A stretch of DNA of 64,000 nucleotides from an uncultured Acidobacteriia bacterium (GTDB lineage: Bacteria > Acidobacteriota > Terriglobia > Bryobacterales > Bryobacteraceae). The translations under genes and the position numbers were made by a program. Location: the NCBI GenBank assembly GCA_903925015.1, contig CAIYDY010000373.1, positions 1 through 64,000 of the forward strand, read 5' to 3'. Shown here one piece after another: positions 3,262 through 64,000 of this stretch. Every line of letters begins with the position of its first letter. Within the stretch, counting starts at the first letter, position 1. The notes under the pieces were generated by a model that searched no databases, was not told the origin of the DNA, and saw only the letters and a program-made list of their open reading frames with translations.

Positions 3262-3885
3262 GTGCCACAGGCTGAACTGAACGAACGTTGTACGTGCGGA
3301 ACCCTTCTGGTGGAGGGCGCGAGTTTCTGCCACCGGTGCGGGCGGCCCGTCGGGGGCGAGCCGGTATTCGACTTTACGGCCCCTGTGCCGCCGGTTGCTC
3401 CGCCTCAGCCCACGCTGCAGGAGGCGTTCGCCAAAATCCCGGTCGGGTTCTCGAATCCCATCGCGCTGCGGGTGGCGTTCCTGATGTCGCTGGGGATCAT
3501 GCTGATGCAGATGATCCCGGGCCTCAGTCTGCTGTTCGTGATCTGGTGGGTGGCGGCCGGCTGGGGCGGGGTATTGCTCTACCGGCGCATGACGGGGCTG
3601 ACGCTGAGTGTGTCCTCCGGCGCGAAGTTGGGATCGCTTACCGGCATCATCACCTTTGTGGGGATGGCAGTGGTTTTCTCCATGACGATGCTGTTTGCGG
3701 GTAAGCAGGTGCTGGAGGACATGGTCAAGCAGCAGCCCGAAATGTCACAGGTCGTGGGCGACCCGCCGATGCTGGCGGCCCTGTTCCTGATGGTGCTGGC
3801 GATTATCTTCCTACTGGTAGTGGGGCTCTGTGCCGCCGGTGGCGCGCTGGGGGCCCGGTTTACGACCCCGAAAGCCGGCGCCTGA
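3262..3885 (+). CDS. Zinc-ribbon integral membrane protein
   Basis: This encodes 207 residues. The N-terminus holds a zinc ribbon with Cys10, Cys12, Cys23 and Cys26 (CTCG...CHRCGRP), followed by a Pro-rich linker. Three hydrophobic blocks then span roughly residues 70-110, 128-150 and 170-197, giving three or four membrane passes. It starts with GTG, preceded by AAGGAT, five bases after the upstream membrane-protein gene. Its 3' end overlaps the convergent glycosyltransferase gene by 26 bp. The architecture (zinc ribbon plus membrane domain) is common for small uncharacterised envelope proteins. No specific function can be assigned. Confidence 0.75.
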   Translation: MPQAELNERCTCGTLLVEGASFCHRCGRPVGGEPVFDFTAPVPPVAPPQPTLQEAFAKIPVGFSNPIALRVAFLMSLGIMLMQMIPGLSLLFVIWWVAAGWGGVLLYRRMTGLTLSVSSGAKLGSLTGIITFVGMAVVFSMTMLFAGKQVLEDMVKQQPEMSQVVGDPPMLAALFLMVLAIIFLLVVGLCAAGGALGARFTTPKAGA

Positions 3886-6325
3886 TAGAGACCACCGCCG
3901 GGTTTGGTTCTTCGACCCTGCTGAAGTTCTTTCCGGTGAGTCGCGAATAGGCATCCAGTGCATCGTTCGCGATGGAATCCCAGCCGAGCCGCATTTCCGC
4001 AGTTACGCGGGCAGCGGCAGCGATCCGGGTGCGCAGCGCTTCATCCCCCAGAAGACTGGAGACGGCCTCGGCGAATCCCGGTCCGATTTCCCGGACGAGC
4101 AGATCCTCGCCGTCCCGCAATCCCAACCCTTGGCATCCGACGCCGGTGCTGACTACGGCGCGTCCGCAGGCCATCGCCTCCATCAATTTGATATTGGTGC
4201 CTGCCGAGACGGGCAGCGGGATGACGACGACGTCGCATTCACGGTATGCCGGGCGGACGTCCTCGACAAAGCCTTGGATGACGATTCGCGGGTCGGCGGC
4301 CAGGACCGCTTCCTTCTTCGCAGCCTTCACGGCCTTTTCGTGGTGGGGGCCGGCGATGACGTGCAGCTTGGTGTCCGGGAACTGCGCCCACACAGCAGGC
4401 ATGATTTCGTTGAGCAGGGATTCGAAGGCCAGCAGGTTGGGGAGGTGTCGGAAGGAGCCGACGAACAGGACGGCCTTCTCGCGGTACTGCCGACGAACCG
4501 GTTGGAACCGCGCAAGGTCAACGCCGTTGGGCACCACGGTGGTCTGCTTCCACGGGGAACCGCTGTCGAGTGCGAGGTCGCGGTCCTGGTCGGACATGGT
4601 CCAGACCGCGTCGACGGCACCCAGGGATTCGCGTTCGAAGCTGTCCCACAGCTTGAACTGGTAGGCGGCGCGAGGGTTGCCGGGAGTTTCCGAAAGCTGT
4701 TTGTAGAGCGTGAAGGTGATGTCGTGCTCCACCAGCAGAACCGGGACCGGACCCGCGTACTTGCGGTACTCGGCCATTTGCGTGTATTCGAGCTGCAGCA
4801 GGTCCACCTGCTGGTCCACGCAGAGGCGCTGCACGAGCTCGGCCATGGCGGAATTGCGGTACTCGGTTACTTGGTCGGGCAGGGTGGAGTAGGGATACTT
4901 TTCGTCGATATCGACTGTATAGACTTGCCGGAACACCTCGTGGAGTTCCTGGTAGCGCACGGTTTCATTGGCTTCGCGGAAGCAGGCGAGGATGAAATCG
5001 ACATCGCCGGACATCTCGCGGCAGAGGTTGTAGATCCGCACCGCACCGCCGTGCGAGAGCGGGAACGGCAGGTAGGGGGACACGACGAGCACACGGGGTT
5101 TGCCGTCGCGGAACGGTTTGGTGTTTGCAGGGGACCACGCGACGTTGCCGCGCTGGCGGTACGGGTGGGCGGGTGCCAGTTTTCGTAGGCTGGGGAAGAC
5201 GGCTAGGCGAGCGACGAACTCGGCGTCCTCCAGCTCCATGGCGGGCTCCTGGGTGATGGAATCGCCATGTCCCAGGATCAAGTTCTGCAGTCCGGCAGCT
5301 GCCGCCTTCCAGTAGAGAATGTTGAGGGCAGCGCCATACGTGACGGCATGAGGGACACCGAACTTCTGGAGGATGTCGCGGCGGATCACCAATACCGGCG
5401 ACCATGGTCCGAACACCTGTGCCACTTCGTTGGGTTGCAGCTGGCGGAACGGATGACGGTTGACGACCTGCTTGCGCCAGCCCGTATAGGCGGATTGCCA
5501 TGCCACCGTGAACGCGCCGGTTTCGCGGGCGAGGGCCAGCAGTGGCTCCAAGCGATGGACGGGATCGCGCCTGCGGAGCACGATGAATTCCGCCACGGAA
5601 TTCTGGGCCGCCTTGGCGATTTTCCTGCGAGGCCAGCCGCGGTTCGGGACCACGATCTCCAACACGCCGGAGCCATGTTCCAGTTGGTTCGCGAATGGCG
5701 ATGGGCGGCCTCCGGTGATTCCGCGCATGGCAGCGCGGGTGAGACCGGGCGTTGCGCGCGCCATCCAGCCCATAAGCGCGAGAAATAGGTTTCCAGCTAG
5801 GGCGAACACATCCCAGACCCGCCGCCCCGTATTGTAGGCGAATGAATAGAGGAGCGGTCCAACGGCCATCGCCCAGTCGCCAAGACGCCGCATGGCCGAT
5901 ACGAACGCGTTGCGGAAACGCCGGATTCCGTGGCTGGCGACCGACGCCGGTGTTGCCGCGAAATAGCCCGAGTCCTCATTGCAGACCACGACCCGGAATG
6001 GCAAGACCGTCAGCGGAACCAGTTTGAAGAGATTGGAGCCGTTGCCGTCGCCCGGCCAGTTGACCACCGTCAGTGCCGGCCAGACGGACGTCAAGCGCTT
6101 GCGCAGTTGCCAGGAGCCAACACCGCTTTCGAAATGGTCGCAGCCGGACCCGTCGCATCCAGAAAGGTGTTCGGAGGGCTCTTCGCAGAATCCCCAAATC
6201 GGGAGTCCGGTGCCGGAGGTGCGTGCGTGGGCCACACTGGCCTCCACCTGCTGGCGGGTGCGGCCGGTAACTGCGATAACTTTTGGCAAATCCGCGCCGA
6301 CGAGGCGCTTCAAGGTTGTCTTCAT
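3860..6325 (-). CDS. Multidomain glycosyltransferase (C-terminal GT4)
   Basis: This encodes 821 residues. The C-terminal ~400 residues form a GT-B, family 4-like glycosyltransferase: 'PRVLVVSPYLPFPLSHGGAV' opens the first Rossmann domain, 'VVPNGVDLARF' marks the inter-domain region, and a donor-binding motif 'SAGTNIKLMEAMACGRAVVS' sits near residues 707-726. The N-terminal half has a Rossmann-like start, one or two hydrophobic helices near residues 165-215, and a second module (about 235-400) that resembles part of a family-2 glycosyltransferase. The ATG overlaps the stop of the upstream TPR gene (ATGA). It probably builds a surface or exported glycan. Donor and acceptor are unknown. The fused N-terminus is unusual for GT4 enzymes, which are normally near 400 residues. 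Confidence 0.8.
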   Translation of the reverse strand: MKTTLKRLVGADLPKVIAVTGRTRQQVEASVAHARTSGTGLPIWGFCEEPSEHLSGCDGSGCDHFESGVGSWQLRKRLTSVWPALTVVNWPGDGNGSNLFKLVPLTVLPFRVVVCNEDSGYFAATPASVASHGIRRFRNAFVSAMRRLGDWAMAVGPLLYSFAYNTGRRVWDVFALAGNLFLALMGWMARATPGLTRAAMRGITGGRPSPFANQLEHGSGVLEIVVPNRGWPRRKIAKAAQNSVAEFIVLRRRDPVHRLEPLLALARETGAFTVAWQSAYTGWRKQVVNRHPFRQLQPNEVAQVFGPWSPVLVIRRDILQKFGVPHAVTYGAALNILYWKAAAAGLQNLILGHGDSITQEPAMELEDAEFVARLAVFPSLRKLAPAHPYRQRGNVAWSPANTKPFRDGKPRVLVVSPYLPFPLSHGGAVRIYNLCREMSGDVDFILACFREANETVRYQELHEVFRQVYTVDIDEKYPYSTLPDQVTEYRNSAMAELVQRLCVDQQVDLLQLEYTQMAEYRKYAGPVPVLLVEHDITFTLYKQLSETPGNPRAAYQFKLWDSFERESLGAVDAVWTMSDQDRDLALDSGSPWKQTTVVPNGVDLARFQPVRRQYREKAVLFVGSFRHLPNLLAFESLLNEIMPAVWAQFPDTKLHVIAGPHHEKAVKAAKKEAVLAADPRIVIQGFVEDVRPAYRECDVVVIPLPVSAGTNIKLMEAMACGRAVVSTGVGCQGLGLRDGEDLLVREIGPGFAEAVSSLLGDEALRTRIAAAARVTAEMRLGWDSIANDALDAYSRLTGKNFSRVEEPNPAVVSIRRRLSGS

Positions 6326-49137: not shown

Positions 49138-50358
49138 TTACTGCACCGCAATGTCAAACGCGGACGACGCTACCCCGCAGGCATTTCTGGCGGTCACAGT
49201 CCATTGCCCAGCCGCGATGCTCGCCGGAAGCGCCGCATTCATCTGGGTTGCCGACAAGTCCCAGAAGTACCCGCCGCTGGTCTCGCCCACCGTGATGGCG
49301 GGACCCTGCGTCGTCGCCGTCAATCCACCCTTTCTGAACTGCAGATCGTTCCCACCGCCCGCCGAGAATCCCGACCCCCACACAACAAGCGTTCCCCCTG
49401 CGGCCAGCGTCTGCCCGTAGGATGCGTTGGTCACCGCGCTGATCGCGGGCGTTACGGAGGCGTCGCAGCTTGCCACCGACACCTTGCCGCCAATCGAGAT
49501 CGTCGTGAGATCGGATGCCACCAGCAGCGCGCCGTTGTATCCGGCTGCCCGCGTGCGGGCCGTGGGATCGAATGCGGCAGGGGCCAGGTGCGAATACACG
49601 GCCAGCTTCGGGGCCACCCGCGTAAAGATTCCGGCGGCCTGTTCGGGCACCGAGTGGTAGGCGGCAGTTGCACTCGTACTGCCAACCGCCGCGTTGAACA
49701 CCTCGTGCACCAGCACTTCCACGCCTTGGGAGAACTTCACGAGGTTGTCCGAAGGCCGGGTGTCGCCCGAGATCGCCACCGAATGCCCGGCATAGTCGAT
49801 TCGGTAGCCAAACGCCGGTGCGACGGGATCATGCGCCACCAGAAAAGCCGTCACGGTGACGCCGTTGCTCTGGTAGACCACGCCCTCGGAAACCACATGC
49901 GCCTCGAAGACGATGGCGGCGGCATTCCATTTTTCCACCAAGTCGCGGCGGATATGCGTATTGGTGGCGTAGGCAGCCGACAGCATGGATCCGAGTTCGG
50001 CCACGCCCGCAGGCTGGTCCGGCCCCGTTCCGGGACCCCAAACCGAAAATGGGTTCGAGCCCCTGCCGTTCCACTGTCCCATCCAGAGAATCGGCAGCCC
50101 CTGCGTGTGGTCGGAGTGCAAATGGGTGAGGAAGATTTTGCTCACCGCCCCCGCCCCGATCTGGTTCAACCGTTCCGGGACCCCGCGCCCGCAGTCAAAC
50201 AGCAGCGTTTCACCCCCAGCCTGGACAAGCGTACCGGCCTCCGCACGGTCGAACGCCAAGGAGGGGCCCGCAGTCCCAAGAAGCGTCACCTTCAGAGTCT
50301 GGGTCTGGGAGAGCAGTAGTGCTGGAAAGAAGAACAAGGCCAAACGGGTGGACATCAT
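49138..50358 (-). CDS. Secreted MBL-fold metallo-hydrolase with C-terminal IPT-like domain
   Basis: This encodes 406 residues. It has a signal peptide (MSTRLALFFFPALLL), then a metallo-beta-lactamase-fold domain with 'HLHSDHTQG' (HxHxDH metal motif), 'VAISGDTRPSDNL' and 'KLAVYSHLAP', as in arylsulfatase/RNase Z-like secreted members. The C-terminal ~110 residues have the NASYG...GSGF pattern of Solibacter-type IPT/TIG-like domains. The ATG overlaps the stop of the restored GH2 frame by four bases (ATGA), which supports both the start and the coupling. It is the sixth gene of the glycan operon. Confidence 0.83.
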   Translation of the reverse strand: MMSTRLALFFFPALLLSQTQTLKVTLLGTAGPSLAFDRAEAGTLVQAGGETLLFDCGRGVPERLNQIGAGAVSKIFLTHLHSDHTQGLPILWMGQWNGRGSNPFSVWGPGTGPDQPAGVAELGSMLSAAYATNTHIRRDLVEKWNAAAIVFEAHVVSEGVVYQSNGVTVTAFLVAHDPVAPAFGYRIDYAGHSVAISGDTRPSDNLVKFSQGVEVLVHEVFNAAVGSTSATAAYHSVPEQAAGIFTRVAPKLAVYSHLAPAAFDPTARTRAAGYNGALLVASDLTTISIGGKVSVASCDASVTPAISAVTNASYGQTLAAGGTLVVWGSGFSAGGGNDLQFRKGGLTATTQGPAITVGETSGGYFWDLSATQMNAALPASIAAGQWTVTARNACGVASSAFDIAVQ

Positions 50359-52825
50359 GAGACCTTGACGAACGCCGTGGCCGCACCCTTGCTGGACACA
50401 CTTACCTCGGACGCCCCGCCGTTGGTCCTCAGCGAAATCATCGCGCGTCCGTTGTACAGCTCCACCTCGCGCGAACCGGTCGACGTTCCCAAATTGTCCA
50501 ATAGCGCCCGTCGCCTGCCAGCCCGAAGCGCACCCGCTGCCGCGAATCCAAACACTGGACCCCCTTGCCGTCGAACAACCGAGCCTCCACCGTGACGGTG
50601 TCGCCCTTCCGCGAGACCTCGCGGATATCCAACTTCGCCGGAGTACCCCACTTCGCCGTCTGGTACAGGAACGAAATCTCGTCCGAGACCTCCACGGCGC
50701 CTTTCCGTGCAACCACGCGGACCTTATTTTCGCCCTCAACGAACTGGACCGTCCAGCGCAGCCCCGCCGCCGGGAAATCTTGGCTCTTGCGGTTTTTCAC
50801 CCCGACGCTCTTCCCATTCAGGAACAACTCCGCCGTGGGGCAGTTCGAGTACACCTTCACCATCTTGGTCTCGTTCGCCGCGCCCCAGCGGATCGGCCAC
50901 GTGTGCCCGTAAATCCTGGCCATCGGTTTCTCCGTCCAATACGATTGGAAGACGTAGAAACCTTCCTTGGGCGTCAAGTCGCGCTCCACCACGCCCTTCT
51001 GATTCATGCGCGGCACCGGATTTTCCGGACGCAGTGGCGTCGAGAAATCCTTGAAGATCCACTGCGCAGCCCCGGTCAGGTACGGCATCGCCTCCTGCTC
51101 CTTCAAGTGCCAGTCGAACAGGTTGCAGATATAGGTTTCCGACCAGTCCCCGTCCTTCGATGCCCGCGCCTGCCCGCCGGTCAGAAGATAGTCCAAGCCG
51201 CGTTCGTCGGTGCCCTGGCCGATCGCAATCTTCGTCAGTCCCGCGTCCGGGTTCTCCGAATGCCGCCGGGCGTGGCTGTCCCCGCCCCATTCCGCGTGGA
51301 AGAAGAACTTTGCGCTCTTCATCTCCTCCTCCACAGTCTTCCTGTACTCGGTGTAGACGCCCCTGTACCATCCAGCCCAGATCGAGGGCGAATAGATGTC
51401 CGGAATGTTCTTGGCGAAATCGCAGCGGCGGATCACCGTCTTGCGCGATGGATCCAGCTCATGCGCCAAGTGGTTCAGCTCCGACATGTAGGTCTTCACG
51501 CCCTCCGTGTCGAACACCGGGAAATCGCCGGGCCAATCGTTTTCGTTGCCCAGTCCCCACAGGATGATCGACGGGTGGTTGTAGTGCTGGTCGATAAGGT
51601 TCCGCAGCATCCTGCGCCCCTGCTCCTGGTAAATGGGACCACCCACACCACCACGGCACCATGGAATCTCCTCCCACACCAGCAATCCCAGTTCGTCGCA
51701 CAGTTGCAACACCAGCGGCGATTGCTGGATATGCGCCAAGCGGATGAAATTCGCCCCCATGTCCTTGATCATGAGCATCTCTTTGCGGATCAGCTCCTCG
51801 GTCATGGCTCCGGCCAGCCCGGCGTGGTCTTCGTGGCGGTGCGTGCCGCGCAGCAGCAGCCGTTCGCCGTTCAGCTTGAATGGACCATGCTCCACCCACT
51901 CGAAGTACCGCAAGCCGAAGTTTTCCGTCGCCCCAGTCTCCCCGTGGGTCGATTTCAAGGTAATATTGCACCTGTAGAGCGCAGGCGTTTTCGGCGACCA
52001 CAGCGAGGGCTTGTCGATGGCGAACGCCGCCAATTGCATGTCGCCCTTCCATGCCGCTGCGCGCTTGGTCGACGTATGGACCGAGCGACCCTGCGGATCG
52101 AGGACTTCTATGCTCACCTCGACATCGTCAGCCAGCACCGCTGGGTTGTAAAGCCGTGCCCGGACCATGGCCGAGGCCGTGCCAGCCGCATCCACCTTGG
52201 GTTCGATGTGCACCCGCTCCAGCGAAATCGCCGGCACGTACACCAAGTTCACGTACCGGTACAGCCCCCCGTAGAGGTTGAAATCACTCAGGCTCGACGG
52301 GATCATCTCGGGATCGCGCGAATTGTCGGACCACACCGCCAACCGCACGCTGCCCTTGTTCGCCTTGGCCTCGGCTGCCGCGGAATCGGTAATGTCCACC
52401 GACCACTCGTCGTACCCGCCCACATGCTCGGCCACCTGCTTCAAGTAGACGAAAACCTTGCTCTTCTGGCCCGCGCCCTCAAAATGCAGCAGCGTTCTGC
52501 CGTTCGGGAACGGATTCGCGGGTTTCAGCGTCGTGCGGTACCAGCCCGGACCCTCGTAGTAGCCTCGGTCTGGATCAACCGCGTCCTGCGCGTTGAAGCT
52601 GTGCGGCATCGACGCGACCTTGTCCCACTCGACGTTGTCGCTTGCCGCTTTGCCACGGAAGACTTCCCAGACGCCGCCCAGCGCGCCTTTGTAGGATTCC
52701 CAGCCTTTCAGCAATCGCTGCGGAGGCACTGCGGCAACGGTGGTCGCCGCAGTTGCAAACGATGCCAAGCGACCGGAGAATGTCGCGGCCGAAAAAGTCT
52801 TCAGGATGGTACGTCTGGTGATCAC
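50355..52825 (-). CDS. Glycoside hydrolase family 2 protein with apparent C-terminal frameshift
   Basis: This GH2 enzyme (beta-galactosidase/beta-glucuronidase superfamily) has a Tat-like leader (MITRRTILKTFSAATFSG). The acid/base Glu428 is in 'LWGLGNENDW' and the nucleophile Glu512 in 'FFHAEWGGDSH'. Its sugar-binding and immunoglobulin-like domains span residues 35-300. The frame reads normally to 'RVRFGLAGDGR', then runs into a nonsense tail ending at 50438. In the alternative frame, 'LDNLGTSTGSREVELYNGRA' continues the normal GH2 C-terminus to a stop at 50355. The break is near 50503-50506. The restored end overlaps the next gene by ATGA. Substrate likely includes a beta-linked sugar or uronate. 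Confidence 0.87.
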
Positions 52826-52831
52826 GGGAAA

Positions 52832-54214
52832 CTAGGCTCCGGGTAATACGAATTTGTCGCCGGTCTTTTTGCACCACTCTGCCAGCAGCGCTCGGTGCTC
52901 GGCCAGGATCTTGGCGAACTTCGGGTCGACCGCCAAATTCGTCATCTCCCCGGGATCCTTGTCCAGATCCACCAGCGATTCCCGCAGCTTGCCCTCGCTG
53001 AAGGCCGTGTACTTGTACTTCTGGCCCCGCAGCATCCTGCCGTCGGGCGTGGGCAACTTGCCGTTGACCTCGGCCCCCTGTACCAGCCGGTCGGAAACAA
53101 CCACATACGGACGCACGTCCTTACCCGCCTTTCCTTCCGCCGCAGCGCGCATGCTGAGGCCGGGCAGCTTGGTCGGCGGTGTGATCTCGGCATAGTCCGC
53201 AATGGTCGGAATCAGGTCGATCCCCGTATTCACCAAGTGGTTGCTGGTGCCCGGTTTGATCACGCCCGGCAGGCTCATGATGAACTGGGTCCTCGCTGCT
53301 TCCTCGTAAAGAATGGTTTTCTGGTTCCAGCCGTGCGATCCCATGCACTCGCCATGGTCGGCCGATAGGACCACCAGTGTCGATTTGTCGAGGCCCGTTT
53401 CCCGCAGCGCCTGCAGCACCACGCCGATTTCTTTATCCACCTTCTCGATCAGCCGGTAATAGGCCCAGATGTACTCCCGCCACTTCTTTTCGTCGAACTG
53501 GCCCACCGGGAACATCGGTGCCGCCTGGTAGGACTTGCGGATCGTGTCCACAATATCCGGCTCGTTGGCTTGCGGTGCCGAGTTGGGGCGCAGTGGCGGC
53601 AGCTCCGAAATCGGCGGCGGCGTGCCGACCTCTCCCAACGGCAGCTTCTGCCCGCGCGACCACTCCGCGATGTTGTGCGGATTCAGGAACGAGGCCATCA
53701 TGAGGAACGGCGCATCGTGTTTCCCCCGCAGGAATGCCGCCACATTTAGGGCTGTCTGCGGATCCTCCATCTTGGTGTCCAGCTTGGCAAACCCGTGGAT
53801 TTCCGGCTGCTTCTCCGGCACGGTCAAATGCCACTTGCCGTAGTACGCCGTTTCATACCCGGAGTCGCGGAAGATCTTGCCCATCATCGGGAACTTCACC
53901 GGATCCAGATGCACCCTCGTCCGGTCGTCGTTGTCCATGATTCCGGTCTCAGTGGGATACCGTCCCGTGAACATGGCCCCGCGCGACGGCACGCAAAGCG
54001 GATTGGCACAGTAGGCGCGCGTGAAAACCATCCCGGCCGCAGCAAGGGAATCCATGTTCGGCGTGTGGATGTACTTCCTGCCGATCCGGTAGCTGGCGGA
54101 TTCCGCGAACTGCTGGTCCGTGGTGATAATCAGAATGTTCGGTTTGGCAGCTGATGCGGCCCCAAGCTCTGATGCGCCAAAGGCGCTTGTGGCAAGAAAC
54201 TGGCGACGGTTCAT
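52832..54214 (-). CDS. Sulfatase (formylglycine-dependent)
   Basis: This 460-residue S1-type sulfatase has a Tat-like start (MNRRQFLATSAFGASE). Cys74 lies in 'NPLCVPSRGAMFTGRYP' and matches the CxPSR consensus whose Cys becomes formylglycine. Metal-ligand Asp33 is in 'IITTDQQ', and 'VVLSADHGECMGSHGW' holds the second metal motif. It removes a sulfate ester from a glycan in the periplasm. It starts four bases downstream of the alginate-lyase-family gene. The substrate cannot be read from sequence. Confidence 0.9.
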   Translation of the reverse strand: MNRRQFLATSAFGASELGAASAAKPNILIITTDQQFAESASYRIGRKYIHTPNMDSLAAAGMVFTRAYCANPLCVPSRGAMFTGRYPTETGIMDNDDRTRVHLDPVKFPMMGKIFRDSGYETAYYGKWHLTVPEKQPEIHGFAKLDTKMEDPQTALNVAAFLRGKHDAPFLMMASFLNPHNIAEWSRGQKLPLGEVGTPPPISELPPLRPNSAPQANEPDIVDTIRKSYQAAPMFPVGQFDEKKWREYIWAYYRLIEKVDKEIGVVLQALRETGLDKSTLVVLSADHGECMGSHGWNQKTILYEEAARTQFIMSLPGVIKPGTSNHLVNTGIDLIPTIADYAEITPPTKLPGLSMRAAAEGKAGKDVRPYVVVSDRLVQGAEVNGKLPTPDGRMLRGQKYKYTAFSEGKLRESLVDLDKDPGEMTNLAVDPKFAKILAEHRALLAEWCKKTGDKFVLPGA

Positions 54215-54218
54215 TTGT

Positions 54219-55388
54219 TTAAGCGACCCACAGGACCGGTTGGCGGATGAAGAAGTTCCGGATGATTTCGTCCACATCGGAATCGGCCGGCAGCGTCTTC
54301 CAGAGTTCCAAATAGCTGGCCTGCTGGTAGGCGAGTCCTCCAAAAAGCAGTGCCTCCTGCCGCATAGGCCAATATTCGTAATACATCACGTCCGGCGGCT
54401 TGATCCAGGTCTTCTTGTCTTTCAGGAACGGGTACATGTACTCGATGGCCTTCTTGACACCCCGACCGTCCGCTGTTTGGAACGCCCAGAGGTTTTCCCC
54501 GCCTTCGGACAGGATCTGGCACACCGTTGCCAGGGCTTCCAGGTTGAACAGGCAGTAACCGTAAGGCTTGGTCCGGCGCAGTTCCTGCTGTTGGCTTCCG
54601 TCGGGCTCGATTTGTCCCGGAACAATCACGTTCTTGAAACGGTCGATGCAGTACGCGGTCAGCTTTTTGTCGCCGGTAAGGCGCGCGAATTCCGCCACCT
54701 GCATCAACCAGCAGGTGCCGTGGTTGTTCTTCGCCGCACCTTCCTCCATGCCGTTCTTGCTTGTGGTCATCCAGACGTTGTACTCACCGAACCACTTCTT
54801 CGTAGCCTCGAAGTCGGCGGCGGACAACGCCTTCGCCTGTGCCAGCAGCGGAATCGCACGGGCGACTTCCTCCAAGTGGATGGTATCTATCACCCCGGTC
54901 CCCCGACCCGTAAACCGACCATGGATCGCCTGGGCGAACTGTAGATTCGGGTTCATCCGGGTCTTCTCGTCCACAAACCAAGCCCGGATGTGCGCCGCCG
55001 CATGCTCGGCGTACTTCTTATCCTTCGTCAACTTCCACGCCGCAGCCAACGCGGGAACCTGCACGCTCAACTTCATCAGGAACTTGCGATGCTCCACGAA
55101 GTTGTCGGGGTTGGTCATCCCGTCCTTCTGGATATACGGACCATCCGGATTTTTCGGATCCGGCCACCAGTAGTCGCCCTCGGAGAAGAAATCGTGCACT
55201 CCACCGGTGCTGCGTTTGCTCGACGCGGAGGTGACAGTCGCGGGCTTGTCGCCCAGATACTTCGCCGCGTTGCGCAGAACCCGGACGCGGTCGAACTGTG
55301 CGACATCGAATGTCGCCTCGCCAAAAGCCGGGGTGGCGGATGCAGCCGCACACCCCGCAAGAAATGTTCTTCTATCCAAACTACGCAA
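54219..55388 (-). CDS. Alginate-lyase-family polysaccharide lyase
   Basis: This 389-residue secreted protein has a signal peptide (MRSLDRRTFLAGCAAAS) and the alginate_lyase (PF05426-like) domain. Motifs are 'DYWWPDPKNPDGPYIQKDG', 'RMNPNLQFAQAIHGRFTGRG', 'NNHGTCWLMQVAEF' (Asn-His-Gly, candidate catalytic region) and 'PPDVMYYEYWPMRQEALLFG'. The family cleaves uronate chains such as alginate or glucuronan, by beta-elimination. It has a clear paralogue at 63367. It overlaps the upstream sulfatase by eight bases and sits between two sulfatase genes. Confidence 0.85.
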   Translation of the reverse strand: MRSLDRRTFLAGCAAASATPAFGEATFDVAQFDRVRVLRNAAKYLGDKPATVTSASSKRSTGGVHDFFSEGDYWWPDPKNPDGPYIQKDGMTNPDNFVEHRKFLMKLSVQVPALAAAWKLTKDKKYAEHAAAHIRAWFVDEKTRMNPNLQFAQAIHGRFTGRGTGVIDTIHLEEVARAIPLLAQAKALSAADFEATKKWFGEYNVWMTTSKNGMEEGAAKNNHGTCWLMQVAEFARLTGDKKLTAYCIDRFKNVIVPGQIEPDGSQQQELRRTKPYGYCLFNLEALATVCQILSEGGENLWAFQTADGRGVKKAIEYMYPFLKDKKTWIKPPDVMYYEYWPMRQEALLFGGLAYQQASYLELWKTLPADSDVDEIIRNFFIRQPVLWVA

Positions 55389-59800: not shown

Positions 59801-60320
59801 TCATGATCCGCAGCGTAGTCGTATTCGCCACGCCCGGACTCAGCCGTTCCAGTTCCAGCGGATTGCCACCGCGCTGCGGCAGTTCCGACAGCCTACGGAC
59901 ATCGATTACATCGCCGACCGAGCTGCCCGCCGTGTCCAGCAACGGCGTCGCGCCCTTCACATCAATGGTTTCGGAGACGTTGCCCACTTCCAGCCGAATC
60001 CGCAAGTCCAAATTATCGGCCACCCGCAGCTCAATCTGGTTCTGGACATAAGTCTTGAACCCTGGCATCTCCGCCGTCACCTTGTACGTGCCCGGCAGCA
60101 GGAACGGCAGGCGGAACGTACCGGACTCATTGGTCGAACTGGTGGCGACGACACCCGTTTCCTGGTTCGTCGCCGTGACCTTGGCGGACGCGACCGCTGC
60201 GTCCTGGGCATCCGCAACCCGCCCTCCAATGGTGCCGCGCGCGTCCTGCGCCTGCAGAACGGAAGAGAAGGAAATCAATACAAGAACCTGTACGACTGGG
60301 ATAAGTTTTGGGGCGAACAT
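56841..60320 (-). CDS. Oar-type TonB-dependent outer-membrane receptor
   Basis: This encodes 1159 residues. It has a signal peptide (MFAPKLIPVVQVLVLISFSS), then a carboxypeptidase-regulatory-like domain (about residues 27-110, 'GTIGGRVADAQDAAVASAKV'), a plug region ('GSVIDVRRLSELPQRGGN'-like, here GDVIDVRRL), and a long beta-barrel of the Oar/CirA type with C-terminal 'NWQLALKLKF' ending in aromatic/hydrophobic residues. AGGAGGTCCGGCA precedes the ATG. No SusD-like gene follows. It heads the operon and presumably imports the glycan fragments. Divergent from the AraC regulator. Confidence 0.93.
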   Translation of the reverse strand: MFAPKLIPVVQVLVLISFSSVLQAQDARGTIGGRVADAQDAAVASAKVTATNQETGVVATSSTNESGTFRLPFLLPGTYKVTAEMPGFKTYVQNQIELRVADNLDLRIRLEVGNVSETIDVKGATPLLDTAGSSVGDVIDVRRLSELPQRGGNPLELERLSPGVANTTTLRIMKLSSPDATSSNTVNGSGNDQTQYNIDGVSDTTNDRGKGYARVAFIPPSGSIQDFKLQANPYDASVGHVLGPVINVGTKSGGNAVHGETYYWGRNSAFDSSNFFDNKAGLKKSVYQDHRFGANIGGPVFIPHFYDGRNKTFFFYSWEENRFGQPSTSNQTSTVPTAGERTGDFSALLALGTSYQIYNPFSTVAIAGGRYQRTPFAGNILPKSLLSTVGLNLAALYPLPSQQGTVNGQNNYYFPDVRVQRYDSHLARFDHAFNQNNRVFARINHFGYTIPKDLLGVPATKELFHQFNKGIALDYVSILSPSFVLNVRYGLIAAIFPEERSTKGADLAAMGFSPSLVKLVNPTNVTVPRAVTTGFATLSNWADGDGFASAITHNLVADLTKEMGRQTLHFGGDVRLFRTFGNRYPGSISPDFSFANTYTKGPLDNSTAAALGQELAAMLLGIPGGSMTTGSTQNYALQNKYYGLFVQDDFKLTPKLTVNMGLRYEMEAPVTERYDRLLGTFDASVNSPVAAAAAAAYAKNPIPELPVAAFSAKGGLTFVGQNGKSRSPYGNSHNLLPRIGLAYQLNSMTVIRSGYGIYFGTIGVDTFQPVQSGFSQVTPIQASLNNGVTYTSTLANPLPNGLIPASGAAGGLATNLGQAIQFFDPAMKAPYSQRWSLGVQRQLPGQFVLDLSYVGNRTTHLAVTKNLNSTPAQYLSTATTRDQNTINFLTASYPNPFSGLNSVYTSTISRAGLLAPYPQFGAITALESQGYSWYHSLQVRLERRFSKGLTTQLGYTYSKFMQATEFQNQSDPMPYRTVSDLDRPRILTMSGVWEIPYGPGKSFGGNAPAIVKAALGGWQLNGTVVRQAGAPLGFGNALFVGNIKDIALPGDKRSPDQWFNTNAGFVKTTANQLANNLQTFPIRFSGVRADGQATWSFSLFRNYTIREKVTAQFRAECYNVMNHPSFDVPNTTPTSSSFGLPTAVVSEPRNWQLALKLKF

Positions 60321-60354
60321 TGCCGGACCTCCTGAGCGAGAAACTACTGGTATC

Positions 60355-60383
60355 AGCGTAGACCCTGGCGACGCCGGTGTCGA
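60355..60383 (-). promoter_or_regulatory. Candidate promoter of the glycan operon
   Basis: On the minus strand TCGACA (60378-60383) and TACGCT (60355-60360) are separated by 17 bases, 35-63 bases upstream of the receptor start. The -35 is a 5/6 match and the -10 is weak (3/6), as expected for a promoter that needs an activator such as the facing AraC protein. Confidence 0.33.
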
Positions 60384-60420
60384 GCCCCAAGGCGGCAAGC
60401 CTTTTGTCCCAAACGGAAAT

Positions 60421-61305
60421 ATGTACAATTGGTTCATGCCGATCCTGCCCGTCGACGTTCTCTGGATCGCCCGCTATGACTACCGTCCAGGCTGGAGTCT
60501 TCCGCTCCACAGCCACGACTATATCCAGATGATTCTCTTTCTGGACGGGACCGGCACCTTCACCATCGGCGAGCAAGCGTTCCCCATCCGCGGCGGCGAG
60601 CTTTTCCTGATCCGATCCGGTGAAACCCACGGTCTGCGGGCCGCCTCCCTGGTCCGCACCCTCGACGTGAAGTTTCGCGTTGAACCCGGCGAATTGTCCC
60701 AATTGCTTGGCAGTGCCGCCCGAATGCTGGAGTGGCACGAACCCTCCCTGGCAGCACGCCTCGAACGCATCCGCACGGAGGGCGAACAAAAACCGCCCCA
60801 TTACCGCGAACTTTGCAGTATCCTCCTCACGGAAATCCTCTACCTCTATATACGGCAGGATCTGCGCACCGAACTCTCCGATGAAGCATCCCTCGACGCC
60901 GTGCTCCCAAGGGACCAGCTGCTGGAGCGCGCCGTGGCCTGCGTCCGGTCGAAATATCAAACCCAATTGACGGTGCGCGACATCGCCAGTGCTGCTGGAT
61001 GCACCGACCGCACCTTGCGCCTGCACTTCCAAAATGTGATCCAAATGCGCCCCCTAGCCTACCTCCAGCGCCATCGGATCACCCAGGCCAAGCTCCTGAT
61101 CCAGCATTCCGACTATTCGCTCAAGGAGATTGCCGAGCAGGTCGGATTCCAGACCGTCCACCATTTCACACGCCTGTTCACGGCCATGGAAGGCCGCAGC
61201 CCAGCCGTCTGGAGGCGCGAATATCTGGAAGGAATCCGCAAGGACGTCTACATCAACCCCACCTTCGAAAACCGGATCTTCACCGTCGGCGACGGTCGCG
61301 AATGA
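60421..61305 (+). CDS. AraC-family regulator with N-terminal cupin
   Basis: This encodes 294 residues. The N-terminal cupin has 'WSLPLHSHDYIQMILFLDG' and 'GGELFLIRSGETHGLRA', the usual sugar-binding fold. The C-terminal two HTH motifs are 'LTVRDIASAAGCTDRTLRLH' and 'YSLKEIAEQVGFQTVHHFTR'. ATG codons at 60421 and 60436 are both possible starts. It is divergent from the TonB receptor by 100 bp and probably activates the minus-strand operon, the plus-strand sulfatase and lyase genes, or both, in response to a sugar. Confidence 0.93.
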   Translation: MYNWFMPILPVDVLWIARYDYRPGWSLPLHSHDYIQMILFLDGTGTFTIGEQAFPIRGGELFLIRSGETHGLRAASLVRTLDVKFRVEPGELSQLLGSAARMLEWHEPSLAARLERIRTEGEQKPPHYRELCSILLTEILYLYIRQDLRTELSDEASLDAVLPRDQLLERAVACVRSKYQTQLTVRDIASAAGCTDRTLRLHFQNVIQMRPLAYLQRHRITQAKLLIQHSDYSLKEIAEQVGFQTVHHFTRLFTAMEGRSPAVWRREYLEGIRKDVYINPTFENRIFTVGDGRE

Positions 61306-61900: not shown

Positions 61901-63370
61901 ATGGATCTCGTTAGTCGTCGCCAATTCTGCACCGCCACCGCCGCCGCAACCATCGCCGCCACAACCACTGCAACCGCACAGCAGCCCCGGTCCCGCCCCA
62001 ACATCGTCTTCGTCCTCACGGATGACCAAGGCTATGGCGACATCGCCATCCTCGGCAACCCCGTCATCAAGACGCCGAATCTGGACCACCTCCACTCCCA
62101 AAGCGTCCGTTTCAGCGATTTCCACGTAAGCCCCACCTGCGCGCCCACCCGCACCTCCCTGATGACCGGCCGCCACGAATTCAAATCCGGCGTCACCCAC
62201 ACCATCTTCGAGCGGGAGCGCATGAGCCTGAAATCCACCACCATCGCCGAAACCCTCAAAAACGCCGGCTACACCACCGGCATCTTCGGCAAATGGCACT
62301 TGGGCGACGACGAGTCGCACCAGCCCGGCAACCGCGGTTTCAACGAGGTCTTCATCCACGGCTGCGGGGGCATCGGGCAGGACTACCCCGGCACCTGCTC
62401 CGATGCCCCCGGCAATACCTACTTCGACCCCACCATCCGCCACAACGGCAAGTTCGTCCGCACCCGCGGCTACTGCACCGACGTCTTTTTCGGCCAGGCG
62501 CTTGCCTGGATCGAGCAATGCAAGGACGCAGCCAAGCCCTTCTTCGCCTACATCACCCCCAACGCCCCCCACGCCCCGCTGCAATGCCCCGACGAGTACC
62601 AACGCATGTACAAGGGCCTCGGTCTCGATGAAAACACCCAGAAGTACTTCGGCATGTGCACCAACATTGACGACAATGTCGGCAAGCTCATGAGCCGCCT
62701 TACGGATTGGGGGATCGAGAAAAACACGTTGCTCGTCTTCATGACCGACAACGGCGGCACCGGCGGCGTCCGCGTCTTCAACGCCGGCATGCACGGTGCA
62801 AAAGGAACCCCGTACATGGGAGGCACGCGCGTTCCGGCGTTTTTCCGCTGGCCCGGCACCCTGCAGCCCGGCGACCGCCCCAACCTTGCAGCCCACATCG
62901 ACATCTTCCCCACATTTGCGGAGATCGCCGGCACCCCCATCCCCACCAATGTCAAACTCGACGGGCGCAGCTTGGTCCCGCTCCTCAAAGATCCCGCTGC
63001 CACCTGGCCCGACCGATTTCTTTTCACCCACGTCGGCCGCTGGGATACCGGGAAGGCCGCGGAGGCCAAGTACGACAAGTGCCGCGTCCGCAGCGCCCAA
63101 TATTCGCTCGTCAACAGCAAGCCCGCAAAGTCTTGGGAACTCTACGATCTGAAGTCCGATCCTGGCGAAAAGCAGAACATCGCCGCGCAGCATCCCGATG
63201 TGGTTGCCCGCATGGAAACCGCCTACGACCAATGGTGGGCCGAAATCCTGCCGCTTCTCGAAAACGAAAATGCAGTGCCGCCCGCCCTCGCTCCCTACAA
63301 GAAGCTATACTTCGACCAGTACGGCGGCGGTCCCGGAATCATGCCCGGCGCCCCGGTAAGGCCAAAATGA
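61901..63370 (+). CDS. Sulfatase, arylsulfatase-A-like
   Basis: This 489-residue S1-type sulfatase has a signal peptide (MDLVSRRQFCTATAAATIAA). Cys80 is in 'SPTCAPTRTSLMTGRH': the motif reads CxPTR rather than the classical CxPSR, a variant common in this sulfatase subgroup. Metal motif Asp41/Asp42 is in 'VLTDDQGYGD' and 'VFMTDNGGTGG' is the second. It probably desulfates the same glycan as the other two sulfatases. Its stop overlaps the next gene by ATGA. Confidence 0.9.
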   Translation: MDLVSRRQFCTATAAATIAATTTATAQQPRSRPNIVFVLTDDQGYGDIAILGNPVIKTPNLDHLHSQSVRFSDFHVSPTCAPTRTSLMTGRHEFKSGVTHTIFERERMSLKSTTIAETLKNAGYTTGIFGKWHLGDDESHQPGNRGFNEVFIHGCGGIGQDYPGTCSDAPGNTYFDPTIRHNGKFVRTRGYCTDVFFGQALAWIEQCKDAAKPFFAYITPNAPHAPLQCPDEYQRMYKGLGLDENTQKYFGMCTNIDDNVGKLMSRLTDWGIEKNTLLVFMTDNGGTGGVRVFNAGMHGAKGTPYMGGTRVPAFFRWPGTLQPGDRPNLAAHIDIFPTFAEIAGTPIPTNVKLDGRSLVPLLKDPAATWPDRFLFTHVGRWDTGKAAEAKYDKCRVRSAQYSLVNSKPAKSWELYDLKSDPGEKQNIAAQHPDVVARMETAYDQWWAEILPLLENENAVPPALAPYKKLYFDQYGGGPGIMPGAPVRPK

Positions 63371-64000
63371 CACCCACCCGACGCCAATTCCTCGCCACGC
63401 CCCTCGCCCTCGCAGCAGCTGGTTCCGGTCGGGCTGCCCCCGGCTCGATGTTCTTCTTCACCTCTTCGGAACTCTTGCGGATGAGCGCTTTCGCCCGTAG
63501 GGATCGCGCCGATTTCATCAACAAGCGTGTCAAGTCCGCACTATCCGCCGGTCCCTGGAGCGTCACCTACAAGCGGCCCGAAGGACTCGGAATCGACGCC
63601 GGTCCCCATGACTACGTCTCCGAGGGCCCCTACTGGTTCCCCGATCCCGACAATCCCGGCGGCCCCTATATCCGACACGACGGTGTCCGGAACACCAAGC
63701 GCTTCCTCGGCAATGCCAACGACATGCGCGCCATGACCGACGCTGTCGTGTCGCTCGGCATGGGCCATAGCCTCCTCGGCCTTGCCGGTTGCGCCGGCCG
63801 CGCAGCCAAAATTCTCTCCGTCTACTTCCTCGACGCCGAAACCCGAATGACTCCCGACCTTCGCTACGGCCAGATGGTGCGCGGACGCAATACGGGACGC
63901 GGAACCGGCATTATTGATACCGCCTGCCTGATCCAGCTCGTCCACGGAATCGCGCTTCTCGAGTCCTCTCCCGGCTTCCCCCGTGAAGTCTCGGACGGAA
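63367..64000 (+). CDS. Alginate-lyase-family protein, truncated by window end
   Basis: This covers at least 211 residues and continues past 64000. Signal peptide MTPTRRQFLATPLALAAAG. The alginate_lyase-like domain has 'EGPYWFPDPDNPGGPYIRHD' and 'RMTPDLRYGQMVRGRNTGRG', closely matching the paralogue at 54219-55388 (EGDYWWPDPKNPDGPYIQ; RMNPNLQFAQ). Starts by ATGA overlap with the sulfatase. It is presumably a second uronate-polysaccharide lyase. Confidence 0.85.
   Translation, partial: MTPTRRQFLATPLALAAAGSGRAAPGSMFFFTSSELLRMSAFARRDRADFINKRVKSALSAGPWSVTYKRPEGLGIDAGPHDYVSEGPYWFPDPDNPGGPYIRHDGVRNTKRFLGNANDMRAMTDAVVSLGMGHSLLGLAGCAGRAAKILSVYFLDAETRMTPDLRYGQMVRGRNTGRGTGIIDTACLIQLVHGIALLESSPGFPREVSDG

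Follow-up and report, generated by a model that had tools for sequence, protein, structure and literature searches.

A recent one-base frameshift, in the organism or in the record alone, close to the 3' end of a GH2 gene in a draft Bryobacteraceae genome

The GH2 gene and its neighbours

The window, the whole stretch of 64,000 nucleotides analysed here, spans positions 1-64000 of contig C373 (73,930 bases) in a draft metagenome-assembled genome (MAG) of an uncultured Bryobacteraceae bacterium, which consists of 459 contigs and 6.33 Mb. Between 49138 and 61305 it carries a run of minus-strand genes: a TonB/Oar-like and a sulfatase-like gene (both recognized by eye), the counterpart of an alginate-lyase-family gene, a sulfatase gene, a GH2 gene and a metallo-beta-lactamase-fold (MBL) gene. 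An AraC-like regulator gene (by eye) lies beside the run on the plus strand, at 60055-61305. As a whole, the region resembles a locus for a sulfated polysaccharide that contains uronate. The features relevant to this work are listed below; G002 denotes the MAG of a relative of the same genus.

54219-55388, minus strand: upstream counterpart of the G002 alginate-lyase-family gene (71% DNA identity over 54226-55214)
52832-54214, minus strand: sulfatase gene, upstream, ending 6 bases before the GH2 gene (Pfam Sulfatase and SGSH_C)
50438-52825, minus strand: GH2 gene in frame one, from a GTG at 52825 to the TGA at 50440-50438, 795 aa, open otherwise
50504-50509, minus strand: where one base is missing compared with G002; the alignment puts the gap between 50508 and 50507, with the exact base ambiguous
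50438-50503, minus strand: out-of-frame tail, 21 residues followed by a stop, YWTIWERRPVRARWSCTTDAR
50438-50441, minus strand: ATGA in which the stop of frame one overlaps an ATG, the first of the 28 codons that are left in frame two
50355-50501, minus strand: remainder of the ancestral C-terminus in frame two, LDNLGTSTGSREVELYNGRA...FVKVS plus stop, with matches in homologues and third-position-biased substitutions relative to G002
50355-50358, minus strand: ATGA in which the ancestral-frame stop overlaps the ATG of the MBL gene (50358-50356)
49138-50358, minus strand: MBL gene, downstream, 406 aa (Pfam Lactamase_B_2 and Lactamase_B)

The first of these genes was assigned through its G002 counterpart, which matches Pfam Alginate_lyase. 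The Pfam scan of the sulfatase used a longer open reading frame reaching 54343, and that of the MBL gene a stretch begun at 50355, one codon late. The genes are tightly packed, with gaps of 4 bases before the sulfatase gene, 6 before the GH2 gene and 1 after the MBL gene; in the longer frame the GH2 and MBL genes would be spaced by -4, and the ATGA overlap at 50355-50358 is in keeping with the tight spacing of the adjoining junctions. A scan for promoters and terminators returned counts at chance level (2 versus 2.1 and 11 versus 10.2).

The break in the reading frame

Frame one of the GH2 gene leaves the conserved frame after GLAGDGR and ends with YWTIWERRPVRARWSCTTDAR and a stop codon. The other frame (frame two) reads LLDNLGTSTGSREVELYNGRAMISLRTNGGASEVSVSSKGAATAFVKVS up to the TGA at 50357-50355, and past the break it continues as LLDNLGTSTGSREVELYNGRA... 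In the DNA alignment with the G002 gene there is a single internal indel over about 2.47 kb, one base absent from the window. An earlier note on this DNA had proposed a single-base frameshift in the GH2 C-terminus, with frame one failing after GLAGDGR and frame two remaining coherent up to an ATGA overlap with the next gene; both frames read as described, and the lone indel relative to a 77%-identical intact homologue supports the proposed frameshift. The GH2 gene is almost certainly one base short relative to its ancestral frame. About 50 C-terminal residues that relatives keep give way to a short unrelated end.

Codon usage in 50441-50503 pointed weakly the same way, with scores of -4.4 for frame one (21 codons) and +3.8 for frame two (20 codons). 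An ab initio frame scan of the whole window by codon usage did not flag the site at the penalty used. No homopolymer of four or more bases lies at the break; within 50355-50700 such runs begin at 50649, 50564 and 50417. No second copy of the gene was detected in the MAG, where the protein matched only itself at E <= 0.001.

The longer form in homologues

The G002 gene (contig CAIKMJ010000080.1, isolate VK_bin-0219) is the sole full-length homologue found in the same genus. It has an intact frame of 822 aa, shares 77% amino acid identity with the window protein over residues 2-773, has the same domains and, like the window gene with its counterpart, neighbours an alginate-lyase-family gene. A relative closer than this was found neither in the MAG itself nor in 19 genomes of the genus or in viral contigs, and a 27-base pattern spanning the break site had no match in the viral contigs.

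For a wider comparison, the best 80 of 160 relatives from a scan of genome contigs were used; the G002 gene, which is present as L002, L031 and L112 and inside L116, was counted once, as L031. The frame-two tail was matched by 77 of these 80 homologues (best 80 of 160) at E <= 0.01, and the 21-residue frame-one tail by none of them. As for the remaining three, two (L093 and L103) have a tail that is, by eye, homologous and diverged, and one (L074) is cut by the end of its contig. Thus, in 79 of the best 80 of 160 loci (77 found by search and a further 2 by eye) a homologous longer tail is encoded in a single frame. Since the frame-two tail is shared so widely, the frame-one tail by no homologue, and the three exceptions are either diverged or cut, the longer form of the GH2 protein is the ancestral one. 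Comparison with orthologues had been proposed in the earlier note as a check on the frameshift, and among the best 80 of 160 not one showed the shorter C-terminus.

Domains, active site and predicted structure

In the window protein four Pfam families scored above their curated cut-offs (PF02837, PF00703, PF02836 and PF16355). Its domains are the GH2 sugar-binding domain, the GH2 sandwich, the TIM barrel, DUF4982 and part of Glyco_hydro2_C5. The match to the last family reaches position 50 of the 103 profile positions in the window protein, below the cut-off, and position 100 of 103 in the G002 protein, above it, a soft criterion because the full-frame protein of locus L100 reaches position 100 below the cut-off and that of L033 gives no hit. 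The NCBIfam equivalog model for beta-glucuronidase LacZ4, with a cut-off of 950 bits, was missed by the window protein (296) and by the intact G002 protein as well (272). In an alignment of 27 sequences E428 (in GNEN) and E512 (in HAEWGG) occupy invariant columns; from GH2 enzymes in general we take them to be the catalytic acid/base and nucleophile glutamates, and both are located upstream of the break. The window gene is predicted to encode a GH2 beta-glucuronidase-type enzyme.

The best match by sequence among solved structures was the GH2 beta-glucuronidase of Parabacteroides merdae (PDB 6D7J and 6DXU; query residues 29-774, E 5.8e-294), whose 830-residue chain has 52 residues more, past the point where the match of the window protein ends. 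An AlphaFold model built for the intact G002 homologue matched chain 6dxu_B over its length (TM 0.92/0.94, 55% identity). The G002 model (mean pLDDT 81.0) ends in a beta-sandwich, to which the part beyond the break contributes strands at 786-788, 793-799, 805-811 and 817-821. The model of the window protein has a mean pLDDT of 76.8, with values below 50 at 769-771 and 773-785. By these models the break cuts the last beta-sandwich; it would probably impair folding of the last domain.

Age of the break

Substitutions between the window and G002 genes were counted by codon position. Upstream of the break there were 140/775, 107/774 and 382/773 changes at first, second and third positions, respectively, and beyond the break, in the G002 frame, 11/48, 7/49 and 23/49. 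For a test of neutrality, third positions were taken as the neutral standard, and the window branch was given one half of the divergence. The 18 changes seen at first and second positions beyond the break compare with 31.7 expected if the sequence had been neutral over the whole window branch (P = 0.0015), 27.6 for three quarters of it (P = 0.017), 23.6 for half (P = 0.11) and 19.5 for a quarter (P = 0.41), a rough estimate of age that is based on 97 sites, with third positions partly saturated. Since frame-two substitutions past the break still fall mostly in third positions, the break is either recent, measured on this scale, or not real.

The ATGA coupling

The earlier note had seen in the ATGA overlap with the next gene a strong sign that the intact form is ancestral. 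That conclusion holds by virtue of the single indel and the 79 of 80 loci (best 80 of 160) with the tail in one frame, but the overlap offered as its reason carries little weight, because the truncated frame likewise stops in an ATGA and the MBL gene was not detected in the homologous loci searched. In tblastn searches (E <= 1e-3) the MBL gene was detected in none of the best 80 of 160 homologous loci, with a search reach of at most about 2.9 kb downstream per locus and less than 500 bases in three loci; the GH2 control was detected in all 80. In G002 the TAG of the GH2 gene is directly followed by the ATG of a GH88-family gene, whereas in the window it is the MBL gene that follows.

Background of indels in the genome

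Apparent frameshifts were screened between 272 kb of this MAG and 1.13 Mb of G002, which yielded 39.3 kb of usable homology in 33 merged segments, a small sample that bounds the error rate poorly. The limits of the screen were loosened after the GH2 pieces had been seen, as with the initial limits the GH2 case went undetected in one of the two directions. There were four candidates in the MAG and three in G002, the latter consisting of an antisense echo of the GH2 case, L165 and L154. Among the four MAG candidates only the GH2 gene was judged, by eye, to be a true frameshift in the 39.3 kb compared. The other three were dismissed by eye: window positions 3358-4295, which are overlapped by a plus-strand open reading frame with a zinc-ribbon-like product; window positions 62247-63997, where identity is 27% and a sulfatase-like gene is followed by another gene; and L136, which lies at a contig edge and has stops interrupting its second frame.

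Origin of the break

Taken together, the GH2 gene carries an ordinary recent one-base frameshift, in the organism or in the record alone, and a recent mutation or an assembly error is its most likely source. If the loss is real, a GH2 beta-glucuronidase-type gene would recently have lost a single base close to its 3' end. Ribosomes would then follow the conserved frame through the TIM barrel into the last beta-sandwich, add 21 unrelated residues and stop at 50438. The product would keep its catalytic residues and would probably be impaired or unstable, its last domain being misfolded; the MBL gene might still be reached if ribosomes restarted at the ATGA at 50441-50438. We propose no regulatory role for the break.

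We lean slightly towards a real loss. In our judgement it is favoured by the lack of a homopolymer of at least four bases at the site and by the finding that no other frameshift was judged real in the 39.3 kb compared. The main rival is an error of the consensus or assembly, by which the organism would have the full-length gene and only the record would lack one base; we regard this as a serious possibility, though somewhat below an even chance, and the choice between the two is a judgement that draws partly on the general error habits of short-read data. The persisting constraint on the lost frame fits such an error, as does a GH2 gene that is otherwise open and stands in a tight gene run, as expected for a functional gene into which assembly had introduced an error, and the genome is a draft in 459 contigs. 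Against it speak the sequence of the site, free of homopolymers of four or more bases, the single frameshift judged real in 39.3 kb, and the sizes of the contigs, which appear to resemble those of a short-read assembly. Indel errors are rare outside homopolymers in short-read assemblies. The window gene is similar to the unclustered ('singleton') frameshifted genes of the GeneTack catalogue in being one-off, bridged by homologues, close to the 3' end and without a recoding motif, although that catalogue was built on complete genomes and the window belongs to a draft MAG (PMC3711429). In favour of an error, that paper expects unclustered frameshifts bridged by homologues to be sequencing errors and not true indels; in favour of a real loss, it speculates that unclustered frameshifts near the 3' end are indel mutations with higher likelihood than those elsewhere in a gene (PMC3711429).

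Readings in which the present arrangement is functional fare much worse. A shorter C-terminus that is established and functional in this lineage would be compatible with the position of both predicted catalytic glutamates, in invariant columns upstream of the break, but the frame-one tail was matched by none of the 80 homologues (best 80 of 160), the lost frame is still constrained, and the break falls inside what is modelled as the last beta-sandwich, with G002 strands beyond it and low-confidence residues (pLDDT below 50) in the window model. We consider this very improbable. Still harder to credit is programmed -1 ribosomal frameshifting that would restore the ancestral frame and yield two products. 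A -1 step at this site would indeed restore the ancestral length of the product, and constraint on frame two persists; however, 79 of 80 loci (best 80 of 160) encode the protein in a single frame, the remaining one being cut by a contig end, and no slippery heptamer was found at the site. Within 50438-50825 there were two heptamers of the form XXXYYYZ: one at 50777, which is in register and lies some 270 bases upstream, and one at 50493, downstream and out of register. RNA starting at the site (96 bases) folded no better than shuffled sequences (z +1.73; 194 of 200 shuffles folded as well or better), a calculation whose scope is structures other than pseudoknots. Programmed frameshifting was rejected because of these three observations. 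A variant with two GH2 products, mostly truncated and in part full-length owing to slippage, ribosomal or in the transcript, at some unrecognised position, and with the MBL protein made by restart at the ATGA at 50441-50438, seems equally far-fetched.

The main consequence is for annotation: a frameshift flag should be set on the GH2 gene, and the C-terminus of its product should not be treated as a genuine variant. Were the loss real, a degradation locus of the sulfatase/uronate type would be very recently losing a glucuronidase-type enzyme.

Distribution of the gene and fusions with alginate lyase

The GH2 gene is patchy in the genus. A DNA search of 19 genus genomes gave matches in five, full-length ones only in G000 and G002, and many of the best 80 of 160 homologues are labelled Verrucomicrobia or Bacteroidetes. 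Horizontal transfer of the gene is possible.

The GH2 frame exceeds 950 residues, with counting begun where the match starts, in 21 of the best 80 of 160 homologues. The two extensions that were scanned (L033 and L100) contain a Pfam Alginate_lyase domain. As a separate gene with this domain neighbours the GH2 gene in G002 and has a counterpart in the window, the fusion suggests that the two activities belong to a shared pathway. Locus L100, whose record is titled Candidatus Kuenenia stuttgartiensis, carries the GH2-alginate-lyase fusion in the same way as loci with Verrucomicrobia in their titles, and its organism label or binning may be wrong.
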